Source of the DNA: Ectocarpus siliculosus
Taxonomy: Eukaryota > Sar > Phaeophyceae > Ectocarpales > Ectocarpaceae
Direction: 5' to 3'
DNA length: 64,000 nt
NCBI GenBank assembly: GCA_000310025.1
Contig: FN649737.1
Coordinates: forward strand, 408,180 to 472,179
Position numbers and translations under genes: made by a program. Below are positions 34,322 through 64,000 of this stretch, piece by piece. A model generated the notes under the pieces. That model was not told the DNA's origin, did not search any database, and was given only the letters and a program-made list of their open reading frames with translations. The first letter of the stretch is position 1. Each line of letters starts with the position of its first letter.

Positions 34322-36196
34322 CTACCCGGTTCTGACTCTACATCTAATTAGTACTTTCGGCAATTCCATTGCATCAGATGCTCTCTGTTCGACTAAGAGT
34401 GCCAATATTATTTCTGATGCGGAGATGGGTCCTAGAGTGGCCATGAGGCCGGGTACGCTCTGCTGATTTACTGCCCGAGTTTCCGCACGGGTTCTGCCTT
34501 CTCTGACCTCAACATTCTCATTCATAGCAGTGTTGTAACTAGCAAGCTCATGCCGCGCACGACGATTGGATGGTACGTGCGTAGCAGGGGGAAATGCCTC
34601 CGATTGTACCTCCTGCCCTCCCGGCTCAACCAACTCTTCATCCAAACCTTCCTGACTCTCCGACTCTACCTCCTGCCCTCCCGGACCCGCCGATTCTGTC
34701 TGCCCTGTCTCCGGCCCTCCCTGCCCTCCCTCATCGGAGAACTCGTCTGCTGGAGAAGACACAGGGGGAGCTGCGCTACTAGGGGAATTAATCGCGGGCG
34801 AAGATGGCATAGAGGGGGGTTGACCTACACTGCCTGCATCAACACTGCCAACCTCATCGATTGTTCCACCAGAGATATCACGTCGCAAAAGAATGTGGGG
34901 AACTCCTCTCCCTAAAAGCGGCCATACCTCAGCTTCTATATCGTCGTCACGTTCCTCCCCTCCCTGCTCTGCAACCTCTATCGGCAAGAGAGACGGTTGC
35001 GGTGGAGGGAGCTGTGACGGCAACGCTTCCCATGTCACATTCCTCGTTTCCTGAATAGTTCCAGCCCTCGTAAGTACTCTATGACAGTCACGCGGGTGGT
35101 CTCTCGAAGGACCGACATAAAAGCAAGCCTCACCCTTCGGTAGCAGCTTAGACGGACGCTGCCACCTACAGTACGCCGGTTTCAAAAACGGATACGGTCT
35201 AGCATGACTAGCTTCACCATGCCACATCTCATACGGTGACTTACTGTCGGGGTTAGCGGAACAAGCTGTGTGGTTAATTGCTTCGCAAGCCCAATGCATC
35301 GCCTCAGCCCATAGTCTATCAGTCTTAGGTAATTGCACATGCCCAAACAAAACTTTTGCCTGATTACGAACAGCCATTGCCGCCGCCTCAATCAATCCCA
35401 AACCACGCTCTGCAACACCGTTGTATTGGGGACTGTAAGCCGGGGTGAACTCTTGCTTAATCAAGAGCTCGTTGCACACGGACGCAAATTCTCCTCCGAC
35501 AAACTCCCCCCCATTGTCAGATCTAACAATCTCAACCAATGATGGGATACCATCAGCACGCACACTTGCAAGGAAACTCCGGAAAGCACTCGCAGCGTCT
35601 GATTCACTTTTCAGGAAATACATCCATGTCCGTCTTGTGAAATCATCCTTCACTATCATGGGGTAATGTTTACCCCCTACGGACGCAACGTCCTTCCGCC
35701 CTCCCAGGTCAACAAAAACTCTGCCCAACTTTTTGTCTGATCTGCATTTTGTTTCATGAGCAATCCCTTTCTTGAATGCCTTCGACATCGAACATCCCGT
35801 ACAAGCATGCATTTTACCGGTCAACTCGATACCTAGTCGCTTTGCAGTTGTACGAAGCAATCCCTCATGCGAATGAGCATAAATGTTATGAAACTCGTTC
35901 ACATCCATCTTAGATTCATGCTTGGGGTTCGAAGGAGTGAGGGCAGTTAACACCGAACCAACAGATTTATCTTCAAGACGATACGCAGTCTTAATTAGCA
36001 TGCCATCGAAGCTCTGAAAAATAGTATGTCCGTCGAAAACAGTCATCACACCATCAGGACCACCAAGCAAGGTAATTCCATGACTCACCACCAATCTGCG
36101 CTGGGAGAAAAGAGGTGATATCCCAAGTTGGGAGATTACAATACATGCTCCAACTCTACAGAAACTCAAATCAGCAGTCACAAACACCAACTCCAA
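34322..36196 (-). pseudogene. copia integrase region with HHCC and DDE motifs
   Basis: This is a 624-codon frame. It opens with a segment normally found after the protease, then the zinc-binding H...H...C..C set (FHNIYAHSHEGLL, CTGCSMSK). The DDE catalytic core follows: Asp in VFVDLGG, Asp in VRSDNGGEF, Glu in YNGVAERGLG. A long Pro/Glu/Gly-rich linker leads towards reverse transcriptase. The protease active-site triad (D-S/T-G) and the CCHC knuckle of gag are not visible upstream, which implies an internal deletion around 36196. Confidence 0.88.
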
Positions 36197-37358
36197 GGTT
36201 CCAGACAGTGCTCTGGCTCAAGGGTAGAAAGTGATCTTTCAACACTCGAAATGCCTTGCTGGGGAAACCTGCATGCCTAGCCATGGTTTTGAGAGAGTTC
36301 TTCAAACAGTCGAACAAAATCCACCTTGATATCTCAGTCTGGCACAGCACACCCATGTATGTTGTATCCTTTCTCTACCCAGGGGGTCAGATCGAATTCA
36401 ATGCTTGCAATCGAAATCTCTACATGTAGCACAGAAACAAAAGCCTCATACAGATTATTGTTGTGGGCACTCAGTAGAAACAATTGTGACCACGACGGAT
36501 ATGACACGTCCGTCCCGTCAAAAACAGAAGCTTTGGGAACTTTGAAAAGGACTCCTACCCAAGTTTTCTCCTGTGTTATTAATGCCGACCCCAGGAATAT
36601 ATGTGTTTCCACTGGCGACACATCCCCACCACTCACTCGATGGAGTAGATGGGGGCGGAATGGAAGACTGGCTACCTAAAGCCCCACTAACCATTCCCGG
36701 AATGGAAGACTGACTATCCACCTAAAGTCCCACTAACCATTCCCGAACCGAAAGACTGGCTACTACCCGAAGCCCCACTAACAGTTCCAATCGAACCAAA
36801 GCTTGCAGCACCAGCAGAGGGACGATTTACAGCAGATGCATGAGGGTTCAAGTCTGAGTCTAGAAGACTACTACTCCCAACTCTCACGCTGGACATGCCA
36901 AGGACTTGGGCACTGCTGCCCTTACCTCCCGCAGTCCTGCCAGTAGCATCTACAGGATGCCAACCGGCGTCGGTTCCGCCGCTGGCTCTACCACCAGCAG
37001 AGGAACGACAAACAACAATTGCACGAAGGTTCAAGCCTGAGTCTGCAAGACTACTACTCCCAACCCACATGCTGGACATGCCAAAGCCTTGGACACTACT
37101 GTCCGTACCTCCCACAGTCCTGCCAGTGACATCCGATTGATGCACACCAGCATACTCTGTTCCGCCGCTTCCCGGCGCAGCAGCAAATGAAACAGAGGAC
37201 TCCACCTGATCACCTCGTTGCCCAACAAGCGACTTGATTATGCTCGTGAGCTGGGACAACAGTGTCTCAATCGAATCCAGTCTCTCACCACCAATAACAT
37301 CCCGCGAATCACCCGGAGGTGGGTAATCCACATGATCCCCAGCAGGCCCACTCATCAC
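36171..37358 (-). pseudogene. copia gag, fragmented
   Basis: The 5' part (36714-37358) begins MMSGPAGDHVDYPPPGDSRD and has a short coiled-coil stretch (RLDSIETLLSQLTSIIKSL). It then has two tandem ~60-residue Ser/Gly-rich repeats, GMSSMWVGSSSLADSGLN and GMSSVRVGSSSLLDSDLN. Short ~45 bp tandem repeats near 36655-36785 disturb the frame. The conserved gag core (KASVFDGTDVSYPSWSQLF) is in 36334-36636, and a further helical piece (SRWILFDCLKNSLKTMARHA) in 36171-36356. The frames do not join without indels. Confidence 0.75.
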
Positions 37359-49289: not shown

Positions 49290-52200
49290 TTAGCCGCTCT
49301 TGGCCTCAGTGTAAGCCCACTCCAGCCACGGCATCAATGCCTCCACGTCTTCCTTCTCGACGGTTGCGCCGCACCATATGCGGAGCCCCGCCGGCGCGTC
49401 TCTGTAGCTGCCCACGTCGAACGCTACTCCTTCTGTCTCGAGGAGGCCTACCATGGTCTTCACCTGCGGTCGCCACATGAATACATTGTCCAGGGGAAGG
49501 GGGATGGGGGGGAATTTAAATTTTCAAGACCGCACCGATGCCAATAATCATAGCTTCATAAGGTTCGAACCTTCTTCTTCGTCCTGATCAGTGTCGAAAT
49601 ACAAGGACCACACGTTAGCAACCGCTGTTCTTCTTGTCGATTGGATCATGACGGGATACGTAGAGGTCAAGAAAATCACACGAAAATGACGACGACGACG
49701 ACAGAGACAGCAGCAGCAGCAGCCACAAAAACACAATATGATAGCAGCGGTGGCGGCTAGGGATGTACGTACCTGGTCCTTCTCGAGGTCCAGCGTGAGG
49801 CACACCGACGTGTTGGAAGCTGTGGCCGGGTCCTGGGCAAGGTTCCTGATCCAATCGCGCTCGCCACAGAAATTGTTGATGACTCTTGCGTTCGCCTGAA
49901 ATTCGTGTTCACCCAATCACAATCACGATGTGACGCCCGGGGATTCCATGTTTAGAATGGGGGGGGGGGGGCAGGCCAGGAAGACAAAATTCGTAGTCTG
50001 AGGCAATTTTATCGTGCTATAAATAGGGAGCTGGCTGTCACGTTGCGATATCGAAGAGATTGAACCTTGGTCCGATAACTGAGTATGATGTAACGAGCCA
50101 AAGAGGCCAAACGTCTACTCTTTCGACTAGGAATAGGTCCAAGCTCGTTCGTCTACACGTGGGCTCTAGAACAGGATCAAGATTTGAACCTTCTCCCGTG
50201 TGTAATTTTAGAGTAGACCATGTCACCCCATTTCTGAACAGGACTAGTTTCACACCGTTCGGTGAATGCTTGGTGAGGACAATGTGTACATCGCCATTCT
50301 GATGGGCTCAAAAACACGGTAGTTGTCTTACCTCTGATCGCTTGATGAGGCCGTTCAGGCCGCCCACGGTGTCGCACCACTGCAGGGCATCGATGTAGTC
50401 TTCCACGCACAGCATGGAAGGCGTATTGATGGTCGATCCGTCGAAGATCGAACGGTCAACCTTGCCCTTCTTCACCTGTTGCCGTTGAAAAGGCATTGAG
50501 AACATACACGCCACCAGAGAGAGAGGGGCGGGGGGAGAGAGAGAGACATAGAGCGAGGGAAAGAGAGACAGAAAGAGAGAGAGGTAGCGAGAAACACAGG
50601 AACATAGCGAGAGACAGAGAGGCACACAGAGATAGAGCGACACAGAGAGATAGAGAGACACAAAGAGAGAGACACAGACAGAGAGACAGAGACAAAAGGC
50701 ACAGAAAGGTCATCGACGTGATAGGGGGGGCACGACCAGGTATGTTTAGCGCGAATGAAACTGCGTGCCGAACCAAGGCAGCAAAGATGCCTCTGGTTAT
50801 GACATCACCGCCAATTACTTTCCATCGTGCGAGGTTGCTCGCGCTGGCGGGAGGCGAGTGAAAGCTTATGTCAGAAAGGGGCTGTGAAACTTGGTGAGGG
50901 GAACCCTCCTCCAGCAAAAAAATGAGTAATCTATAATACTCACATCCCCCTCTTCCTTGCGTTCCTTGTAGAACTGTGCATGCAATGCGCCGAAAAACGT
51001 CCGAGTCGAGCTCCAACAATTCCTCTAGGACAACGCAACAGAAAAAAAAAACGCAACATGTTCAACACACGCACCATGCGGAAGATCTTGGGCAACGGTC
51101 TGTCAGGTGTGAAGGACTCGAGCCTCTCCACTGCTCTTGGCGACAGCACCATCACACCGTGCGCACCCTCCCCGCCGAGAACCTTCTGCCACGAGTAGGT
51201 GCTCACGTCACACTGTTCAGAAAGAAGCGAAAACGGGGGTGGGAGGGTGGGCGGGTGGGGCTATTTACTCGCTGTACGTGTCAAACGAGACACGAAAGAG
51301 AAACTTCAGTGTGAGAATTTTCGTTCGAGGGAAAGACATGGCCCTCTCTCCATCTCCTGTTGAACGCTCACACATTCATCGCCCTATGATAGCTGCAAGC
51401 AACAACATTCATGAGTGCCCCTACTCCCTCTTTCATGACCCGAAGTCGAATCTATCCATGTAAAAGCTGATAAATCCCTCCCCCACCCGTTCCCTCAGGT
51501 CCCCGGAGTGGTGAACATCTTGCGCGTGCTGCCCGCAGCGGGGCCTGACATCTGGGACCCTACTCTCATCACCGACATCGATGGGATGGACCACACCGAG
51601 GCATACGTCAACAATGATGACGTGTACTAGTGTGCTACTACTGTTGGAGTGCGGTCAAGGTTGCGAAGGGGAGACGACAGGGGCACACGAGCATCCAGCT
51701 GTAGCTGACCCACCGCCAGCCGGTCAGCCAGCTAGCCCGCCATGCACGTTATTACTCGTTCTGATTTGAGAATACGAGCATGTTGCAGGTGTCAAACGAA
51801 ACACCTACAAACACTGCACGCGAGAAATATTTAGTGACGACAGGTAGAAGGCCCGCTTCTCACGGAAAATCAACTGTATTTTTGTTGTTCGATCGTGTCG
51901 CAAATAAACGATGAGCACGCGCTCTGCCAAAACACATTTCCCTTCAAAACAACGCCCGTATCAACACTCCTGATTCTTCGATCGAAACGCGCAACACGAA
52001 CAGCATGTGTTATTTACACCGATCTGCGCGAAGTACCTTGTTCCACGGAATATCCATGGCGAACGCCGCAGACGTGCAGTCGTTGAACGTCAACCCTGTC
52101 CGATTGTCCGATATCCAGTCTCCGTTAGGTACCTGGCCGAAACAACAGGAAAAAAACAACTGGACAACTAAGCTGATTTGGACAAACGATGCAACACGAC

Positions 52201-55200
52201 GCTTAAGCCAGGATCGGGGGCGGAGGTGCATACCAACCCCTGAAGTAATGCCTCCTTTAAGCACATCCAGCGGCCAGCAGCTCTCGATTCCTAACGACGC
52301 TGATCTCTCTCCATCGAGCACTCCGCCATTCTTCCAGTCCGACTGGACCGCTAGAATACGCACACACAACATCGGGGTCTTCGAGGATAATTGCTACTGT
52401 AGCCCGAACGCATGGCTGACGAAGCCTGGTCGTCAATCGCAGGACCAAAATACACAGCTCAGGAAAGCCCCGACCCATCCACCAATCAGAGCACGGAACA
52501 CTAGAATAAACGGAAAAAATAGCTGAGGCAAGCAGTTGATGGACCAAGAGGTAGACACGTAAGACAGACAGGAAACGTGGTCCATGACCAAAATCGCCGG
52601 CCTACCCTTCGCGCGAGTGCTCCCCTTCTATGGGGAAGAGGAACATACGGCAGCAAGACTCGACAACACGAACACCAAAAAGTCACCCGACAGGCCGACA
52701 GAAAGACAGACAGACAGACAGACAGACAGGCAGGCACGAGACAAAAGTGAACAAGTGTCACCTTAACCCCCGATGTGGTTCCGTTCCAGGTGAAGAGGAT
52801 GTCCGAGTCCGGGTTGGTCTGGCTCAAGTCGGGCAGGTGCCCGTAGTCTGCCGTGTGCTCCGTGACCTGGTCCTTGAGCCCCAAGTGGGTCATTGCGTCC
52901 CCGTGCCAACCCTGATAAACAAAGAGAAAAAACGAAGCAACAGTGGTGATATCATACAGCTTACGATAGGACAGGACGCACGTTTCGCTGTGGGTGGACA
53001 TGCTTCCTCTGGGATCGCCTTCGCGCGATTAATGACTTTATGAGGAAATACAACAGGGAGGGGGGTACGCAGACTCTATTCCCTAACCCAACTTCCCCGA
53101 TTGTATGCGATATACAACATGTTTAATTCATCGAAAGACCCTGCGAAGACCGCTGTTCCTCTGTGGCTGGCGCACGGGGATACCCATATGGTCATTTGTT
53201 CTCGTCGTTGCTGCCTTTACATTAAAAAACCGGCTCGGTCTCTGCTCAGCACCTGCCAACGTCCGTACCGATCCAACTGACGCTGCCGCCTTCCGTAGTC
53301 AGAAGCCAACCGTGTACACTGAACTAAACTAGTGTACGGGTGTACTCATAGCCGTAGTCGTTAGACAATTTACCTCGCATTCCTACATAAAGCCGGGACG
53401 GAGCACGCCGGGTTTTCACCGGACCAGGTTAGCACATCGCCAAGCGCGAAGCGCCGTGAAGTACCGACGAGCCGTTTCGAGTGTGCATCCTGCCAATATT
53501 TAGTATTCAAGTGTAGGCGGCGTAATTTTTTCTGTGTGACCCACCTTTCCGAAGGACTCCCAGTGGCAAGAGTCGATGTCGCGGGGTCCAAGCATGGACC
53601 ACATCGCCATCTCGTACGCCCCGGTGTCCGAAGCGGGTACCTGATGGCAAGAGAGCAAAAAAATAACGCACAAGAAGGGTTTAGCATAAAAAAAAAAAGA
53701 CGGAACCATATCACACAGGGAGGAAACAGGGTGAAAAACGAGTGGTACCTGATCGCAAAGGCACAAAGCATCCGCACAAACAACGTCAACGTACAAACAG
53801 TACGGCAGAATCTCCCATAGCGAAGAAATATGATGAGAAACGAGTGGGTGCCTGAGTGCACACGCACGAGAAACCAGCACACAAACATGGTCAATATACA
53901 ACACACACGGTGGGAGCATATCACATAGCCAGGAGAGTATCGTGAAAAACAAGAACAACACCTGACCGCAGAAACCATCGACTCCTCTCGCTGGTGCCAT
54001 GATGATGTCATTGTTCATCATACGACGCAGAGAACAAAAGATTATCGCTTGATTGTCTTACGATGGTGATAACAATGATTATCGCTATTTGTTGTCCTGC
54101 AATGTGGAGAAAGCTTCAAGAATACCGCTCTTTACTCTTACAGTGCGATTCCCAGAAGGATAGTAACCGCTTTTCTAGTCTTACGATGTCGAGAATCAAG
54201 ACTAGTAGTATCGCTTTCGTCTTACTATGCCGAAAAAATTAAGACACTATCGTATGGTTATTTTCTATGTTCGCCTTACGATGCCAAGAAGGTATAATAG
54301 TCGTCCGGGATACCGAGGGCTACCACGTTCTAGTCTTACGATGTCGAGAAGTAAGACTATTGTATCGCTTGCGTCTTACGATGCCGAGAATTAAGACTAT
54401 CGTACCGCAATTTTCTATTTGCGTCTTACGATGCCAAGAAGGTAGTCGTCCGGGATACCGAGGATGCGCTTGGACTCCTCGATGGCGTACTTGAGACGAG
54501 CCTTCCCGACCTTGGAACGGTGAGAGCGGCCCAGCGACTCCGACTTGAGCTCCGACGCCGACCATCTGGCAGAAAACAAAAAACGAAGCCAGACAAGAAA
54601 AGGGAGTACAGCAGTAGCTTCCTCTTGTCAAGCTTGCAGTCTTCCATGATCACTTCATGACACTCCGACAGAAAAGACCCCACTGAATGAGAACCTCTTA
54701 ATCGCCCTGAGGCTTCTTCCTCGTCTTCTCTGCGGGGTATTATGTACCCCCATCATCGACCAATAAACTCAAAGCGTTTATGCTTACGTCTGTCTAACCC
54801 TGGCCGTTTCTCAAGGGTCTAACGAGGACATGACCTTTCTTTCGTCCCACGACCAACTCCTCCTTCAGTTGCTACTGGGCCAGGGGAGAACAACGCCCAG
54901 GCCCATTATCTCGCAAAGCCGCACTCACAGACTTCCTATCGTTGCTGGAAACCTCACCCCCCCCTCCCGCCCCCCTCGCTCTTCTCACCGTCAATTACCC
55001 CGCCTAATGCCTTCGCGTTCCATGACAGTGCAAGCAACCAACCAACGCCTGCATCCCCTCGTGTCACCAAGATATCGTACGACCACCACCTACTACTAAC
55101 ACCGGGACTAATACAACAACGCCAACTACACACTACGACCAATTCTGTCATGTACCACAATCTCCAATAAGTTGTGCTATTTGACGATGCCGTGCTGTCT

Positions 55201-58200
55201 CTCATCTCACCCTGGGCGCTTCTTGCACGGACCAGACGAAAACTCCGGGTGCTGCGGCTTATCCGGGGGCATGGGGGTTCCGTAGACTTGTCCCTGGGAG
55301 GCCTCGTCCGTGTCCATGCGGAACGAAGGGTCTTCTCTGCTGTCGATGCTGGCCTGTTCGTTCAAGCAGTCACCGCCAAGCGAAAAAAAAATACAAAATG
55401 AGAAACCATGGAGAGGACAGGGGTGCAGTGCAGTGGTGCCCTAAAGACAGCAACAACGATCCATTACGGGTTGGCGTTTTGTATCTGCCAACGACAACTG
55501 AGGGAAGCTGCCCTCTCCCCGTCTGTACGAAAGTAAGGCGGCTTTTTCTCCGAACGGATCTAAACCATATCTGTATCTTGCACGACGCTACATGCGCCTG
55601 TCCGGCAATTTTCTCATGTTTTCTCAAAGTCCATCGACTCAAGCCGTTCCACACGGGCCAAGAGGTGGTGAGAGGCATACGTTGGGTTTACAGACAGGCT
55701 CCCTCGATAGTGCGGTCGACGACATCATATACCGAGTTCTCTCAATAGTCAACACCGGACTATTCTATTGAGGGAGCTTCTTCGCCTGCAGACACAGACA
55801 GTGTTTGCCCAATGAGGGCTAAAGTTACGGTTTGGGTTCGCTTCGCTGTTACTGTATAGTGCCATACATACCTGAACGACGTTGCGGATGTCAGGAATCT
55901 TTCGGATCTCCTCCAGCATGCCCTCCGTGCAAGGGGTGTCGAGGTTGAGGCAGCTCATCGCCACGCCTCCGGTGCGGACACGGCCGAGCGCGAAGGAGGC
56001 GATGTTGATCTGCACGACAACAACAACAACAACAACAACAACAAGCAAGGGAGAGCCGACAAGAAGATCATGAACCGTGCAAAGGCAGATAGGGGGCCCC
56101 GTAGGGGATGAAAAGTCAGAGTGTCTCTCCTCCAGAGTCTGGGGGTGGTAAAGTACAAAATATTGCGTCATCTCCTTTTATTAAAGAATACACCAGTTCG
56201 ATTTAGTATTCCCTCCCTCAAGTATTTGGACCAAACCCCAGTTACGGGCAGAGCGCCCCAACCCGCGTTCCGTGAGTCCGCTTGAGGGTAACGAAATGTT
56301 CAAGCCGAGAGCACACCTTTGAAAGGAATCAAGCCACCGCCAACCTATTATCTCTCTGCCTGTTGCTTGGCAGCCTATACGTGGGCAAGCCTACTGGACA
56401 ACCAGCATATGAAACCATTTCATCGTGATCACTATCGTACATATCATCAGCCACAATCTCCCTTGTGGCCTGATGACCCCGCCCCCCCGTTCAGTTGGCG
56501 TTATGGTCTCACCCCCTGGTCGCCGAGGATAGCGGCCACGGCTCGGAGCATGCCCGGAGAGTCCGGGTTGTTGAACATGAGCATGTGTCCGCTGGGGTTG
56601 AAGTCGATCTCGAGGCCGTCCACGTCCACCACTCGCGTGTCCGTTCCGAAGCACGTTCCTGCATTTCATTTGGCGAAACCCCGCCCGATACGAGCATTAA
56701 AAAAAAAAAGATGACAAAAAAAAAGAAAGAAATTAGATGCACCCCGCCGGCATGTGGGTATGTGCTGCTGAGAACACCCCGTTCGTACACAAGGAGACGC
56801 CACATACTCGGGCACCGCTGTGGACAGAAATAACCAGGTGTAATGACTCGAAAGCGTGTTTGCGTTCTTCGTCCCGCTACAAGGCCAAAGCCATTTCGTT
56901 CGTCAGACGGTCAACGTGTTCGATGCTAAATAACTATTATATAATAGTAATAGGTGAGGCCGCTCGAACGCGTGTTTGCGTTCTTTGCCCCGCTTCAAAG
57001 CCGCAGTCATTTCATTGGCCGGACGGTTACCGTAAGTTGCATAGGATATTACACCCCCTGGACCGATTTTCAAAGCTTCATTACTCCACGACGAATGCAG
57101 AAATCAGATGATGATGATACGTTTTTCGGAAAGCTCTCGACGGGACCGTTCCAACGCCGACACTTTCGGCACCGTCACTGCTTTTCCTGCCGCGATATCG
57201 AGCTTCGAACATCGGTCCAGGGCGTGTGATATCCTACGCAACCTACGGTAACGTGGTCGATGCTAAATACTGTAAAAGTGCACCCACAAACACACACCCT
57301 CTGGGGCTCCAGATCATGGGCTTTGCACGTGTTTCCCGATTTTGGTCTAGCATTAGCGCGGTCGATGCCAACAAAACAACAAAAAAGTATAGGGAAGAGA
57401 GAGAGGGAGAGAGAGAGAGAGAGAGATGGGGCTTACCGGTCATGGTCCTTCTGCCGTTGAGAACGCCGTCGATCTCGAACTCCACGCTGAGCCCGTTGAG
57501 GTAACCCTTAGGGTCCCGCTCCGAAAACGCCACCTCGATCGCCAGACCCGTGTCCTTCGCCACGGCAGCAGCGTTAACGTAGTTCACCTGTCGCGTGCAT
57601 CGACAGCGACATCGACGATCGGACCGGATTTGCCAGAGGGGGGGGAAGTAGAGCGTGTCAGCTTGCGCACGCACAGGGACGACTAGCATCGGGAGGGAGG
57701 GGGAAGGACCCCAGGGGTGGGGGTCAGCTTGCACGAAAAACACATCACCTCCTCCCCCATGCTGGTCTGCGCTGAGAAAAATCACGCAGCGGACGGAATG
57801 TGCCGCCAGCGTTAGCCAAGCCAGACAGGGTACAGGGCATCCCCACACAGGAGCAACACCGCCCCCGCCATGCTTTCGTCTACAGCCGGAATTTAGCAGC
57901 AGTTTGGTGCTCTGTGCGTGATTCGTCATCTCGCCAACTCTGGGCATGAACGAGAAGTAAAAATAACACGGTATGCCCTTCGCGTTCTCCGCAACCAACC
58001 CAGATACAGAACGCCTGTAAAAGGCCTGTTGCCAGGGACAACAACAGCCTTTCGACGACGAGGTCATTGTCGACCAAACCCTTTCCTTCCAACCACAAAA
58101 AAAAAATGCCCCCCCTGCACCCTCTCCTTATGATTCTTCGCCCAAGCCATGAAGCATTTACGTCTGCATGCGTAATTTACCTCCTGGGCGAGAAGGAGGT

Positions 58201-59988
58201 TGAGCGCTCCCTTGATGACAGCGGCGGACATGGGCCCCGCCTTTTCCGGCACTCCCAGGTTCTTGCCGTGAAGAGTCCCCTTGATGCTGGGGACTTTCAA
58301 CACAACAACAACACCAATAAAAACGACAACAAGGCAAAATTGACGTACAGCACATATGGATCAGGAAGAACCGGCAGAACAGGGAGGGGGGGGGGGGGGC
58401 ATCGTTGGAGCTGTCATGCTGGAGTACACCACAACAATATTTTACTGGTGTTTGGAACGTGGAGGGGTACGCCGCGTACGGGCCGGAGGTTGGATCTGAA
58501 GGCATTTTCATGCAGCACATGTACGCACCAAACCAGCGCATCAGCAGCAACAGCAACAACATCAACAACACACATAGCAACACAACATCAGTAACAATAT
58601 CAAGGGCATCATCAACAACGACATCGGCACCAACAGCAGGAGCAGCAGCAGCAGCAGCAACAACAACAACAACAACATCAATAACGCACCTTCCCCTGTC
58701 CCAGCAGCTGCGCCTGGAGTGCCCCCATCCTCTCCCCGAGAGACACGTACGCCGTGAGCTTTGACTTGCGCGCGGCGGCCATGTTCGGCGCGTTGAGCAC
58801 CCCCACGTACTCCCCGCCGTCGAGGACGTCGCACATCTGGATCGCGATGTCCTTCGCCACTCTCACCTTCGACAAAAAACGACAAACCCACAAGACACAA
58901 ACAAACAAAATGTGTGATTCCAAAGGACACACATGTGGGTCTCGCGCGGTCACAAAACGACAAACCACAAGACACAGACAAACAAAAGGTCACAAACCAG
59001 CATCTACCAGCAACTAAAAAAAGTACAAAGGACGCGCATATTGGTCCCGCGCGTTCACAAAGCGACCACTCATAAAAAAGCAACCACGACAAAAAAAAAA
59101 GGTGCACAAATCAGATGGAAGGTACGCAGAACAATCATGTAGGTCTCGCGCTTTACAAAGCGAGCACCAACAAGCAACTAAAAAGGGGTACAAAGGATAT
59201 ACTTAAGGGTCTCGTGCGTTTAAGAATGAGCGCCAACCAGCAACAACCAGAGAGGTACAAAGGACGCAAATATCGGTCTCGCGAGTTAAAACGAGGGCCC
59301 ACAAGCAAAAAATAAAAAAAAGGGAGAACACAAGGAACGACATTGGTCTGGCGCGCTTACAAACGAGCATCCAACACCACCACCAACAACAACACAACAG
59401 GTACTTCGTGAAAGGATATTAGTGGGTCTCGCGCGGATAGTGCGTTCTCGTTTTGCAACCTCCACGCCTTCCGTACACATGTGTCAGCTATCGATCGGTC
59501 TGCGTTGGTCGCAAGCCCCATGGACATCGCCATGAGCGCGCGCTCCGCCGCCCATAACTCACGCTCACGAAAAAGACATACCGCGACAACAAACAACACG
59601 AACTTTGTTGGGCACATTTTTCTGCGTCCATTCATATTCCGTGTTTCGATTTCTAGAAGTAACGGTAGGTGGCCTGCGGCTACGGAAGGCGGTCCGGTAC
59701 GGATGTTACAAGGTACTACCGTATATGACACAAGATAACACACCCCCTGGACCGATTTTCAAAGCTCGATTACTCCACGACGAAGAGGATGCATACACGA
59801 AACAATACGTTTTCGAACAGCTCTCGACGAGACGGTTCCAACGCCGCCGTTTTCGGCGCTGTGACTCTTCCTGCTGTTGAGAAATTGAGCTTTGAAAATC
59901 GGCCAAGGGGGTGTGTTATCTTGTGTCATATACGGTAGGCGGAGACCAGAACTGTTATTGCAACAACACCACCACATAAACACGACGA

Positions 59989-60052
<64 letters not shown>

Positions 60053-60252
60053 AACAACAAACATCCGGCAGCGGGAGTGGTTGCGGGTGCGCTGCGTGAA
60101 CGCATCAACTGCACCGCCCCGTGACGCACCTGAGCGTCTTGCGTCGACGCCCCCAGGTGGGGCGAGCATACGACCTTGGGGTGCGTGACGAGCTCCTTCA
60201 GCTCGGGCGGCGGAGGCTCGCTCGGGTACACGTCCAGCGACGCTCCGGCCAC
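49290..60252 (-). CDS. D-3-phosphoglycerate dehydrogenase / phosphoserine aminotransferase fusion (5' part outside window)
   Basis: This predicted bifunctional enzyme would oxidise 3-phosphoglycerate to 3-phosphohydroxypyruvate and transaminate that to phosphoserine, the first two steps of the phosphorylated serine pathway. Fifteen exons are visible: 60252-60130, 58866-58690, 58294-58181, 57587-57437, 56658-56513, 56009-55872, 55353-55211, 54565-54430, 53640-53545, 52911-52762, 52132-52037, 51212-51075, 50475-50332, 49895-49773 and 49463-49290. Introns are 309-1263 nt, GT...AG where clear, and mostly phase 0. The dehydrogenase half ends IPDIRNVVQ at a GTATGT donor (phase 0). The next acceptor opens, in phase, an exon reading [20 protein letters not shown] and then the aminotransferase N-terminus, with no stop between. 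That 518-nt intron is ordinary for this gene. Two separate genes remain possible if a small terminal exon was missed; the Met in FRMDTDEA could be a start. The dehydrogenase N-terminal half (Rossmann motif, catalytic Arg) and any targeting peptide lie outside. Confidence 0.8.
50505..50705. repeat. GA-rich low-complexity tract in an intron
   Basis: AGAGAGAC/AGAGAGAG repeats of about 200 bp in the intron before the 50332-50475 exon. They produce spurious Arg/Glu or Leu/Ser frames on either strand. Confidence 0.9.
50944..51024 (-). other. candidate 81-nt cassette exon in the aminotransferase
   Basis: On the minus strand a pyrimidine tract and CCTAG acceptor precede an 81-nt open stretch that ends at a strong GTGAGT donor (GAT|GTGAGT). 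It is phase 0 on both sides and would add 27 residues, starting [12 protein letters not shown] and ending [10 protein letters not shown], between PKIFRM and VKKGKV. The family joins these two directly, so the exon would be an insertion. The upstream intron would be only 50 nt, unlike all others here. Confidence 0.3.
53641..53970. repeat. ~107 bp tandem repeat seeded at a 3' splice site
   Basis: Starting at the acceptor of the 53545-53640 exon, the intron repeats units that include the acceptor-like CAG. On the minus strand GCCATCAG|GTACCC is followed by GCGATCAG|GTACCA, CACTCAG|GCACCC and GCGGTCAG|GTGTTG, ending at 53641, 53749, 53852 and 53962. Unit spacing is 103-110 bp. Confidence 0.75.
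54050..54430. repeat. tandem repeat carrying copies of a 5' splice site
   Basis: The plus-strand word CTTAC(G/T)ATG(C/T)C recurs about seven times between 54056 and 54433 with GTCTTACG...AAGACTA(T/G)CG linkers. In the gene's orientation it reads GGCATCGTAAG, the exon end plus donor. The copy at 54273-54319 also repeats the last ~45 nt of the exon itself, with a 5-nt insertion. Confidence 0.8.
56012..56046. repeat. CAA microsatellite next to an acceptor
   Basis: A run of CAA units (GTT on the gene's strand) forms the pyrimidine-rich tract directly before the acceptor of the exon at 55872-56009. Confidence 0.85.
57028..57250. mobile_element. TACCGTA-ended MITE, copy 3, in a PGDH intron
   Basis: Terminal inverted repeats of about 55 bp (TACCGTAAGTTGCATAGGAT left; TACCGTAGGTTGCGTAGGAT reversed right, each leading to CCCTGGACCGAT) bound a 223 bp element with the core GTTCCAACGCCGACACTTTC. 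Flanking TA/TA is compatible with a TA target. It lies in the 57436-56659 intron and would be transcribed as a hairpin. Confidence 0.8.
58540..58690. repeat. CAG/CAA trinucleotide tract in an intron
   Basis: CAGCAGCAA, AACAACAAC and GCAGCAGCAGC runs lie immediately inside the donor side of the exon at 58690-58866. They read as polyleucine on the minus strand. Confidence 0.85.
58870..59435. repeat. degenerate 65-100 bp tandem repeat in a PGDH intron
   Basis: Units start GGTCTCGCGCG (near 58940, 59043, 59142, 59208, 59275, 59346 and 59424) and contain ACAAANCGA, CCAACAAGCAACTAAAAA and GTACAAAGGA(C/T). The array begins at the acceptor of the 58866 exon, and CGACAAACCCACAAGACACA next to the splice site is repeated ~90 bp on. 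Confidence 0.75.
59717..59937. mobile_element. TACCGTA-ended MITE, copy 4, in a PGDH intron
   Basis: The best-preserved copy. Terminal inverted repeats of about 60 bp start TACCGTATATGACACAAGAT on both ends and continue AACACACCCCCTGGACCGAT with few mismatches. The internal core is GGTTCCAACGCCGCCGTTTT. It would fold into a long hairpin in the pre-mRNA. Confidence 0.88.
59960..60062. repeat. ACAGCA/ACAAC microsatellite
   Basis: About 100 bp of ACAGCA then ACAACA units downstream of the first visible PGDH exon. They read as poly-Val/Leu on the minus strand. Confidence 0.9.
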
Positions 60253-60708
60253 CTGAAGCATGCAAGCACCACACACGGGGAAAAGTGACAACGCGAAAGG
60301 GGGAAGGCACAGAAGGGGCGCGGGGGGGCAAGGGGGAGGTTGTGAAAAAAAAAAAAACTGCCTGCGAAGATGCGTACCTGAAGATACACATGACACAACA
60401 GGCCTCACTTTGAACGAGATTCGCAAGAAAAATCGATTGCGCCGCGTATGCCCACGTATTTCGGAACAGGGACTTGAACACGGCACGGAATGGAATGGAA
60501 GGTATGGTGTGGTACGGTACGGTATGTTGTGGTATGGTACGGTATGGTCACTCTTCGAGAAGGGGGGAACACGATCTCACGAGAACGTGCAAACTGAGAA
60601 ATGCCAAGACAGCAAAAACACGAACAACGTCAAAAGCGAGATAAACGTATGTGTATGATTCTGTACAGATGTACCGTCAAATTTTCCAAGTACTCGATAC
60701 ATGCTATT
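60253..60708. other. intron or upstream DNA of the PGDH-PSAT gene
   Basis: Begins with the acceptor (CATGCTTCAG) of the first visible exon. Contains an A12 run near 60346 and a GGTACGGTAT-type microsatellite at 60490-60550. No PGDH coding sequence is visible. Confidence 0.6.
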
Positions 60709-63700
60709 GTGCAGCGGACGCTCTAGTCGTAGGTACATAGATCCATTCTTGCGCGCAGACGCGTACCACAAGAGCCATTCTCTTCATGACACGAGGCACC
60801 GCCGAGATTGTCATAGAACCCAAGCCCACACGATACCGCCCACTTCCCCACCCCGGTCGTTACTGGTAAGCGACACCAAAAATCGAAACAATTGCTATTA
60901 AGCAAACCTACGAATGCCATCGGCGTTTGTATGTATTAGTAGTAGTTCCAAGCTGCTTTATGTTTGCGCTTTTAAGCTGCTTTTATCTTTTGCGCTTGTG
61001 TTGCAGGCTTTGAGAACGGAAGCGGAGAGGGACCCCAATAGCACGCAAGACGATGGAGAGCACGACAGCTACAACTGCCATTATCGAGGCAACAGCGAGG
61101 ATAAACAAACCGGAAAGCTGAAAACAACAGACCCACACCTGATCGTCAACTTGTTTTGAGATGCAGATGGTCCAACCCTCTGTGTCAAAATCCGAACAAC
61201 CTTTGCGTGCGAACAGTAGTGGGCCGACTTGGAAAAAGAGAAGGTGGTGGTACAATAGGACTTATACCACCACTTTATCTTCTTCGAAATCGCCCCACAC
61301 GTACTCGTGTACAAAGGTTCGTCGGATTTGACACACAGGGACCATCCGCATCTCCAAAACAAATGGACGATCGGTGGTCAGGTCAGGCTCGAACACACGA
61401 CAACCAGGAGTGGAGCTTAGCGTGTGCGGGAGCGGGGGGAGGAGTGCACCAAAAGTGCGTAAGGACCCTAAGTTATCCGCAGAGGAACAACAAAAGAAAA
61501 CGAAGCCTTCTTCAAGGGGAAAGCATGCTGAAAGTGGGTCGCATGAGATACCACACGACGCCCTGTACAGCGAACGCTCTTGTGGTGTAGTCCTAGGCAG
61601 GTCGGTTTCTTCGACGTAGACCCTAACTCACCACAGCAGGCAACAGGCACCCTCTTCGTCCACAAGGCACAAGACACCGCAGAGACCGTCACAGAAGAAC
61701 CCAACCCCAAGACAAAACGCCCCGCCCTCTCACCGGTGTCCTCTCTGGTAAGCGACAACCCAAATCGCAACAATTGTTGCTAATCGAGCCAACGAATGTC
61801 GTCGGCGTTTCTATTTAGTCCCAAGGTGCTTTATTTTCGCGCTTGTGCCGCAGGCTTGGAGAACGAAAGCGGAGAAGGACTCCCTGAGCACGCAAGACGA
61901 TGGAGAGCACGACAGGTACACGTACCACTATCCAGGCAACAGTACGAGGGCAAACAAAACGAAAACCTGAAAAACAGCAGACCCACACCTGATCGTCAAC
62001 TTGTTTTGAGACGCAGATGGCCCAACCTTGTGTGTCAACATCCGGGGCAATTTTCGTGCGAATATATGGGTCGACTTCGAACAGGAGGAAGTGGTGGTAT
62101 AACAGGGGTCTTGTTTGACCACACGACAGAAGGGGATTTCGGCCGCAAACCAGTCCATGACGTCCGTTGCCTGGAGCGTCAGAGCAACACAATCGAGACG
62201 CTAGGGTGCAGACTCTTGCACCCTGGCGTTTCGAACGTGTCGTGCTAGCGCTCCAAAGCAACTCACGCCATCGACTGATTTACGGTCGAAGTCTCCTCCT
62301 GTTTCGTGACCAAGTAGGACCCTAGTATACGACCACTTCCTCTTCTTCGAACTACCCCACATGTGCGTACGCAAAGCTCCTCAGCTTGGGCTTGGCCATC
62401 TATCACAAAAACAATTGACCATCGGCCATCAGGCTAGGACACACGACAAACCAGTGAGGCAGGGAGATGTGTGGAAGTGGAAATGAGCGAGTGCGCAGGA
62501 GGGGGAGAGTAACCAAACTGCGGAAGGACCCCGACCCATCCGCAGAAGAACAACCCCAAAAAAATGGAACGCACGCTGAAAGGTGAAACGTAGGTCACGT
62601 GAGATAACCACACACCCGGTACAGCGGACTCTCCAGTCGTAGGAAGGTCGACTCTTGTATGTCGACCCTTGCCACAAGAGCCGCCCTCTTCATCCACACG
62701 ACACAGCGTTCCACCCCGGCCCTTGCCAGCTTGCTGGTAGACCACACCAATATCGGACATTTTTTTTCTAACAGCAAGTCGACGAACATCGTCGGCGTTT
62801 TGCGAAGTAGTCCCAAGCTGCTATGCAGGCTTACTAATTCACGTTGTGCCGTAGGTTTTGAGAACAGTAGCGGGGTGCGAACCCCACGCAGGAACCTGAC
62901 AGCACGACAGGTCGCTCTATTATTCAGGGAAGCGGCATGACGGTACAACAGAAAACGACCCAGACCGATGGACATTTTCTTTGGGGTACATGTCCGACCC
63001 CGCGTGTCCAAAATCCAAGGAAGATTGCGCGCGAATATGTTGGGGGCGTTCCAAGCACAAGGTGGTAAATTACGCGTATAATACAGTATTTGTAGTCGAC
63101 CCTCAACAACGCCGGATGAATAGCGCCGGTGGCACTGTAAAGCGCGTGTGAAATTGCTGCGCACAGTCTCAAGTCTGAATCACCAAGTAATTATGTTCAT
63201 TCAACAGCGCCGGTCGATGCGCCGGGCACATACCGACGTGATTAAAGGCCCTCCACTGCAGTGGTATACTTCTACCGTGTACAGCAGTAGTTGATGACGG
63301 AGATAATGAAATGATAATGAAATGAACGGTACTCAGGTCGACAACGCTCGCTTCCCTGGAGTGCCAGCACGACACGTTCAAGGCACCAAGGCGCAAATAA
63401 GCTTCGAAGAAGACACCTTGAAGGCACCAAGGCGCAAAGAAGCTTCAAAGAAGTCTTCTTCGAAGCTTCTTTGCGCCTTGGTGCCTTCTTCTTCGAAGTT
63501 TCTTTGCGCCTTGGTGCCTTGAACGTGTCGTGCTGGCACTCCAGGGAAGCGAACGTCGTCGACCTGAGTACCGTTCATTTCTTCATGTTCCCCGTGACCA
63601 GCAACTGTTTGCCACTAAAAATGGTACACACTACAATCGCTTGTTCTTGGAACGAACCCCACACGTTCGCTCGCAAAGCGCCCTTGGCTTTGGACGCGGA

Positions 63701-63760
63701 TTTGGCCGTCAATCCCAAGACAACAATTGACGATCGGCGGTCAGGCTCGAAAATGAGTGA
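60709..63760 (+). repeat. ~1 kb repeat in three tandem copies
   Basis: Units begin GTGCAGCGGACGCTC (60709), GTACAGCGAACGCTC (61565) and GTACAGCGGACTCTCC (62618). Shared words are ACGAATG(C/T)C(A/G)TCGGCGTTT, TTTGAGAACG(G/A)AAGCGGAG, CACACCTGATCGTCAACTTG and GAGATACCACACGACG. A pyrimidine tract plus TTGCAGG in each could be a relic acceptor. Both a plus frame (60914-61159) and a minus frame (61255-60983) stay open, and the minus one shares SKQVDDQVWVCCF between units 1 and 2. The DNA identity is high enough to explain either, so I call no gene. Unit 3 is split by the palindrome at 63319-63581. Confidence 0.7.
63319..63581. repeat. 263 bp near-perfect palindrome
   Basis: Two ~125 bp arms starting GAAATGAACGGTACTCAGGT face each other. 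Each arm also contains the tandem word AAGGCACCAAGGCGCAAA with AAGAAGCTTCGAAGAAG spacers. Both strands give related open frames (start MNGTQVD). It interrupts repeat unit 3, so it is probably an inserted fold-back element. Confidence 0.85.
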
Positions 63761-63985
63761 GACAGGACCAGTGTGGCGAGTTCGGGAGTGCAGTTGAGCG
63801 TGTACGTGTCCGAGGGGGGGGGAGGGGGGCTCGTGGACAGGACCAGTGTGGCGAGTTCGGGAGTGCAGTTGAGCGTGTACGTGTCCGAGGGGGGGGGAGG
63901 GGGGCTCGTGGACAGGACCAGTGTGGCGAGTTCGGGAGTGCAGTTGAGCGCGTACGTGTCCGGGGGGGGGGAAAGGGGGTCCTGG
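63761..63985. repeat. 75 bp G-rich tandem repeat, three units
   Basis: Units start GACAGGACCAGTGTGGCGAG at 63761, 63836 and 63911, each with a GAGGGGGGGGGAGGGGGG core. The last unit runs to the window edge with changes. Confidence 0.92.
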
Positions 63986-64000
63986 GTTGCCGCTGCACCA

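Follow-up and report, generated by a model that had tools for sequence, protein, structure and literature searches.

On the minus strand of a 64,000-nucleotide stretch of the Ectocarpus siliculosus genome (contig FN649737.1, positions 408,180 to 472,179; hereafter the window), 15 exons between positions 60252 and 49290 encode parts of two serine-pathway enzymes, the dehydrogenase PGDH and the phosphoserine aminotransferase PSAT (Table 1). When spliced in our gene model, the exons yield a single open frame of 683 residues followed by a stop codon. Along the frame, the last part of the PGDH NAD domain is followed by the intervening domain, the ACT domain, a linker and a complete SerC_2-type PSAT, so that both enzymes are found in one open frame with PGDH first. 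All 14 introns have GT-AG ends. The exon 2 donor (GC/GTTATT), which is the weakest donor of the gene, was picked by its fit to homology. Apart from the intron at the junction of the two enzymes, the 13 introns are 309–1263 nt long.

Table 1. Features of the PGDH-PSAT gene, with positions in the window
Feature	Position	Strand	Supporting match
Region 5' of first visible exon, degenerate repeats and 75-bp tandem array reaching the N run	60253..64000	-	
Exon 1 (first visible), PGDH NAD-binding domain end	60130..60252	-	TIGR01327 247-290, paralogue identity
Exon 2, PGDH NAD domain end and intervening domain start	58686..58866	-	
Exon 3, PGDH intervening domain	58181..58293	-	PF19304
Exon 4, PGDH intervening domain	57437..57587	-	PF19304
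Exon 5, PGDH ACT domain start	56513..56658	-	PF01842, TIGR01327 425-477
Exon 6, PGDH ACT domain end, VVQ, phase 0, without stop codon	55872..56009	-	
Junction intron, 518 nt, GT-AG, phase 0	55354..55871	-	
Exon 7, 34-residue linker then PSAT N-terminus	55211..55353	-	
Exon 8, PSAT	54430..54565	-	Alignment to bacterial genes
Exon 9, PSAT	53545..53640	-	Alignment to bacterial genes
Exon 10, PSAT	52762..52911	-	Alignment to bacterial genes
Exon 11, PSAT	52037..52132	-	Alignment to bacterial genes
Exon 12, PSAT with conserved SWQK lysine	51075..51212	-	Aligned with APQK of 2fyf
Exon 13, PSAT	50332..50475	-	Alignment to bacterial genes
Exon 14, PSAT	49773..49895	-	Alignment to bacterial genes
Exon 15, PSAT C-terminus and stop codon (AKSG*)	49290..49463	-	Alignment to bacterial genes

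The introns of this gene also carry short dispersed and inverted repeats of ~62–71 nt that are 77–92% alike (window positions 56847–57095 and 59716–59938), among them one 63-nt inverted pair. These repeats are possibly small mobile elements.

We compared the first part of the frame to PGDH profiles. Residues 1–283 match positions 248–521 of the 525 positions of the PGDH model TIGR01327, and Pfam identifies an intervening domain (PF19304, PGDH_inter) and an ACT domain (PF01842). Judged by these domains, the predicted PGDH is of the long form. The visible part of the enzyme comprises profile positions 248–521 only, and the first ~247 positions, which make up the catalytic N-terminal half, fall outside the window. 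Immediately past the end of the window begins a run of 32,790 N in the assembly, which extends to C12:504969. Degenerate repeats with units ~850 nt apart occur in the 3.75 kb that precede exon 1 (within 60950–64000), and a 75-bp tandem array runs to the edge of the 32.8-kb N run. The presence of this array at its edge suggests, albeit tentatively, that the N run reflects a gap in the assembly rather than a withheld stretch. At 63314–63586 there is an inverted repeat with 129-nt arms.

We searched for the 5' exons of the PGDH between exon 1 and the window's end (3.75 kb), in the 5.2 kb past the N run and genome-wide, and did not find them. The intron before exon 1 must exceed 3.7 kb, well beyond the range of the other introns. 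Together with the repeats found in the upstream region, these results would fit a 5'-truncated or broken PGDH, in which case the locus would encode a PGDH regulatory region and a PSAT but no dehydrogenase activity. We regard this as very unlikely. The 32,790 N positions at the window's end leave room for the missing exons, none of the visible exons is disrupted, and exon 1, which is part of the NAD domain, shares 66% identity with the corresponding exon of a PGDH paralogue on contig C40, a level of conservation that is not expected of a dead remnant.

The PSAT half was assigned to the SerC_2 type (TIGR01365) with a score of 559.1 bits against a cut-off of 448.2, and with 603 bits it also exceeds the cut-off of NF002841. 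The bacterial SerC_2 proteins nearest to it share 60–67% identity with it. The alignment with the intronless bacterial genes is unbroken across all PSAT exon joins, and the length differences are single residues only, located away from the joins. The predicted exon joins of the PSAT half are thus confirmed by the intronless bacterial genes. The catalytic core, including the lysine of the SWQK motif, is invariant with the bacterial SerC_2 members. From what is known of the family, this lysine is expected to bind PLP. It aligns with the lysine of APQK in the solved enzyme 2fyf. Because SerC_2 is divergent, a genome-wide search with the Pfam class V aminotransferase model (PF00266) missed the fusion locus and matched only other places; the locus was recovered with the NCBIfam models.

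The central question is whether the two halves belong to one gene, as had been proposed in a preliminary description of this DNA. That description placed the end of the dehydrogenase exons in phase 0 at VVQ with a GTATGT donor, followed by an acceptor that opens a phase-0 exon running through a linker of ~30 residues into the aminotransferase. Our gene model agrees on both sides of the junction: exon 6 ends with ...RNVVQ at 55872 in phase 0 (donor CAG/GTATGT), and exon 7 starts at 55353 in phase 0 (acceptor ...GAACGAACAG/GCC) with a linker of 34 residues. We scored the splice sites by a leave-one-out procedure. The junction donor scores 6.5 (other donors of the gene, −1.6 to 8.5) and the junction acceptor 2.7 (other acceptors, −0.5 to 14). 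Both lie inside these ranges, the acceptor below the gene's median. In length, as had been noted previously, and in splice scores, the 518-nt junction intron is thus similar to the other introns. The linker is hydrophilic, and its third-position GC content of 0.79 resembles the values of the exons of the gene (0.72–0.92).

The preliminary description also took the absence of a promoter-sized spacer as a sign of fusion. The distance of 518 nt is correct, yet it is weak evidence because a compact promoter could fit into a stretch of this length. Better arguments for a fusion are the lack of a stop codon and the matched phase. In a stand-alone PGDH, a stop codon would be expected only a few codons after the end of the profile. 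Here, 284 residues precede the junction donor and the match to TIGR01327 reaches model position 521 of 525 at residue 283, and when the frame is read through the donor into the intron, the first in-frame stop comes 40 codons on. Two adjacent genes, with a PGDH that reads on past the junction donor and a PSAT that starts at an internal methionine (FRMDTDEA... or MPPDKPQH...), would be consistent with these 40 open codons, which could give an unspliced PGDH a short tail, and with the fact that bacterial SerC_2 proteins start at about the MPPDKPQH position; we nevertheless consider such an arrangement most improbable, as there is no stop where the PGDH profile ends, at the donor, the junction donor and acceptor are phase-compatible with ordinary scores, no AATAAA or ATTAAA occurs within the 518-nt junction intron, and brown-algal homologues have been published as fused.

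The continuous frame, the phase-compatible junction and the published brown-algal and oomycete fusions all support the original proposal of one fused polypeptide. On the basis of the DNA sequence, the locus is very probably a spliced nuclear gene that encodes one protein, with PGDH at the N-terminus and a bacterial-type SerC_2 PSAT at the C-terminus, joined by the 34-residue linker.

We searched the genome (189 Mb in 492 contigs) for other copies of both enzymes using profiles, with scores for the best candidates only. Among these candidates, SerC_2 matches occur at the fusion locus only and there is no SerC_1 match, and the fusion is the single PSAT detectable in the genome. A second PGDH gene is located on contig C40 (L035, C40:165000-174900). 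It has 5' exons, an exon 66% identical to the first visible exon of the fusion and with the same boundaries, and apparent later exons, and a 100-N gap lies inside it. This PGDH appears to stand alone because no PSAT match was detected on C40. A more distant dehydrogenase is found on contig C23. The search for phosphoserine phosphatase returned weak partial matches only.

We compared the fusion to previously described proteins. A bifunctional PGDH-PSAT of oomycetes was described in 2009 (PMC2705460), and fusions of oomycetes and of the brown algae Ectocarpus and Cladosiphon were reported in 2017 (PMC5715807). Compared by published description, the brown-algal fusion shares with the gene studied here the order of PGDH then PSAT, the SerC_2 type and the stramenopile lineage, and no difference between the two emerged at this level. 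The oomycete fusion (Phytophthora infestans PITG_00133; P. sojae Ps142688) comprises the same two enzymes in the same order, and P. infestans also keeps separate stand-alone PGDH genes, much as the genome analyzed here appears to keep one. The fusion is therefore of an already known kind, real but not new, and our analysis confirms a published stramenopile fusion at exon resolution.

To place the fusion relative to bacterial genes, we examined 65 bacterial loci with a SerC_2 relative. Many of these loci have a PGDH (serA) match within a few kb. In most of the loci with a match, serA lies downstream of serC on the same strand, and it is divergent in four (L054, L056, L058 and L059). In none of the 65 loci is a PGDH encoded in frame upstream of the PSAT, and we thus rejected the idea that the gene came from bacteria in fused form. 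One locus (L088) has a long open frame upstream of the PSAT, but its PGDH match is downstream. Whereas bacterial serC and serA are separate genes, mostly with serC first, the fusion has the opposite order. This reversal bears on how the fusion arose. The fusion looks eukaryotic in origin, because bacterial serA is never fused to serC and the bacterial order is mostly the opposite.

In our tree, the PSAT of the fusion is located beside a group of gammaproteobacteria, deltaproteobacteria, Verrucomicrobiota, Lentisphaerota and Bacillota and apart from the alphaproteobacteria (support 82/95). We note that this placement is tentative because the fusion branch is long. It agrees with the published placement of brown-algal and diatom PSATs, which group with gammaproteobacterial rather than alphaproteobacterial relatives, whereas the oomycete PSAT is reported to cluster apart from those of brown algae and diatoms (PMC5715807). 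It is conceivable, although we hold this only tentatively, that the brown-algal fusion arose apart from the oomycete fusion or that its PSAT half was replaced. A SerC_2 of gamma- or deltaproteobacterial or verrucomicrobial affinity would then have been fused behind a eukaryotic PGDH, the reverse of the bacterial serC-serA arrangement.

The predicted protein would oxidize 3-phosphoglycerate to 3-phosphohydroxypyruvate and transaminate this product with glutamate to phosphoserine. The fusion would fix a 1:1 ratio of the two enzymes and keep both in one place, and it may channel phosphohydroxypyruvate between them. Channelling and a fixed ratio are suggestions in the 2017 paper as well (PMC5715807). 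A mitochondrial location has been predicted for the brown-algal homologues, and by analogy the fusion protein is probably mitochondrial. With no other PSAT detectable in the genome, serine synthesis by the phosphorylated pathway would depend on the fusion.

Two further observations concern other sequences. A 631-codon open frame on the minus strand of the window (34325–36217) contains an integrase core domain (PF00665, E 4.6e-11) and is likely part of a retroelement or another integrase-bearing element. The genome contains 87 light-harvesting-family matches, which together with the long introns fit a photosynthetic stramenopile, most likely a brown alga, with clustered copies of identical scores on contigs C92, C232 and C488, outside the window.
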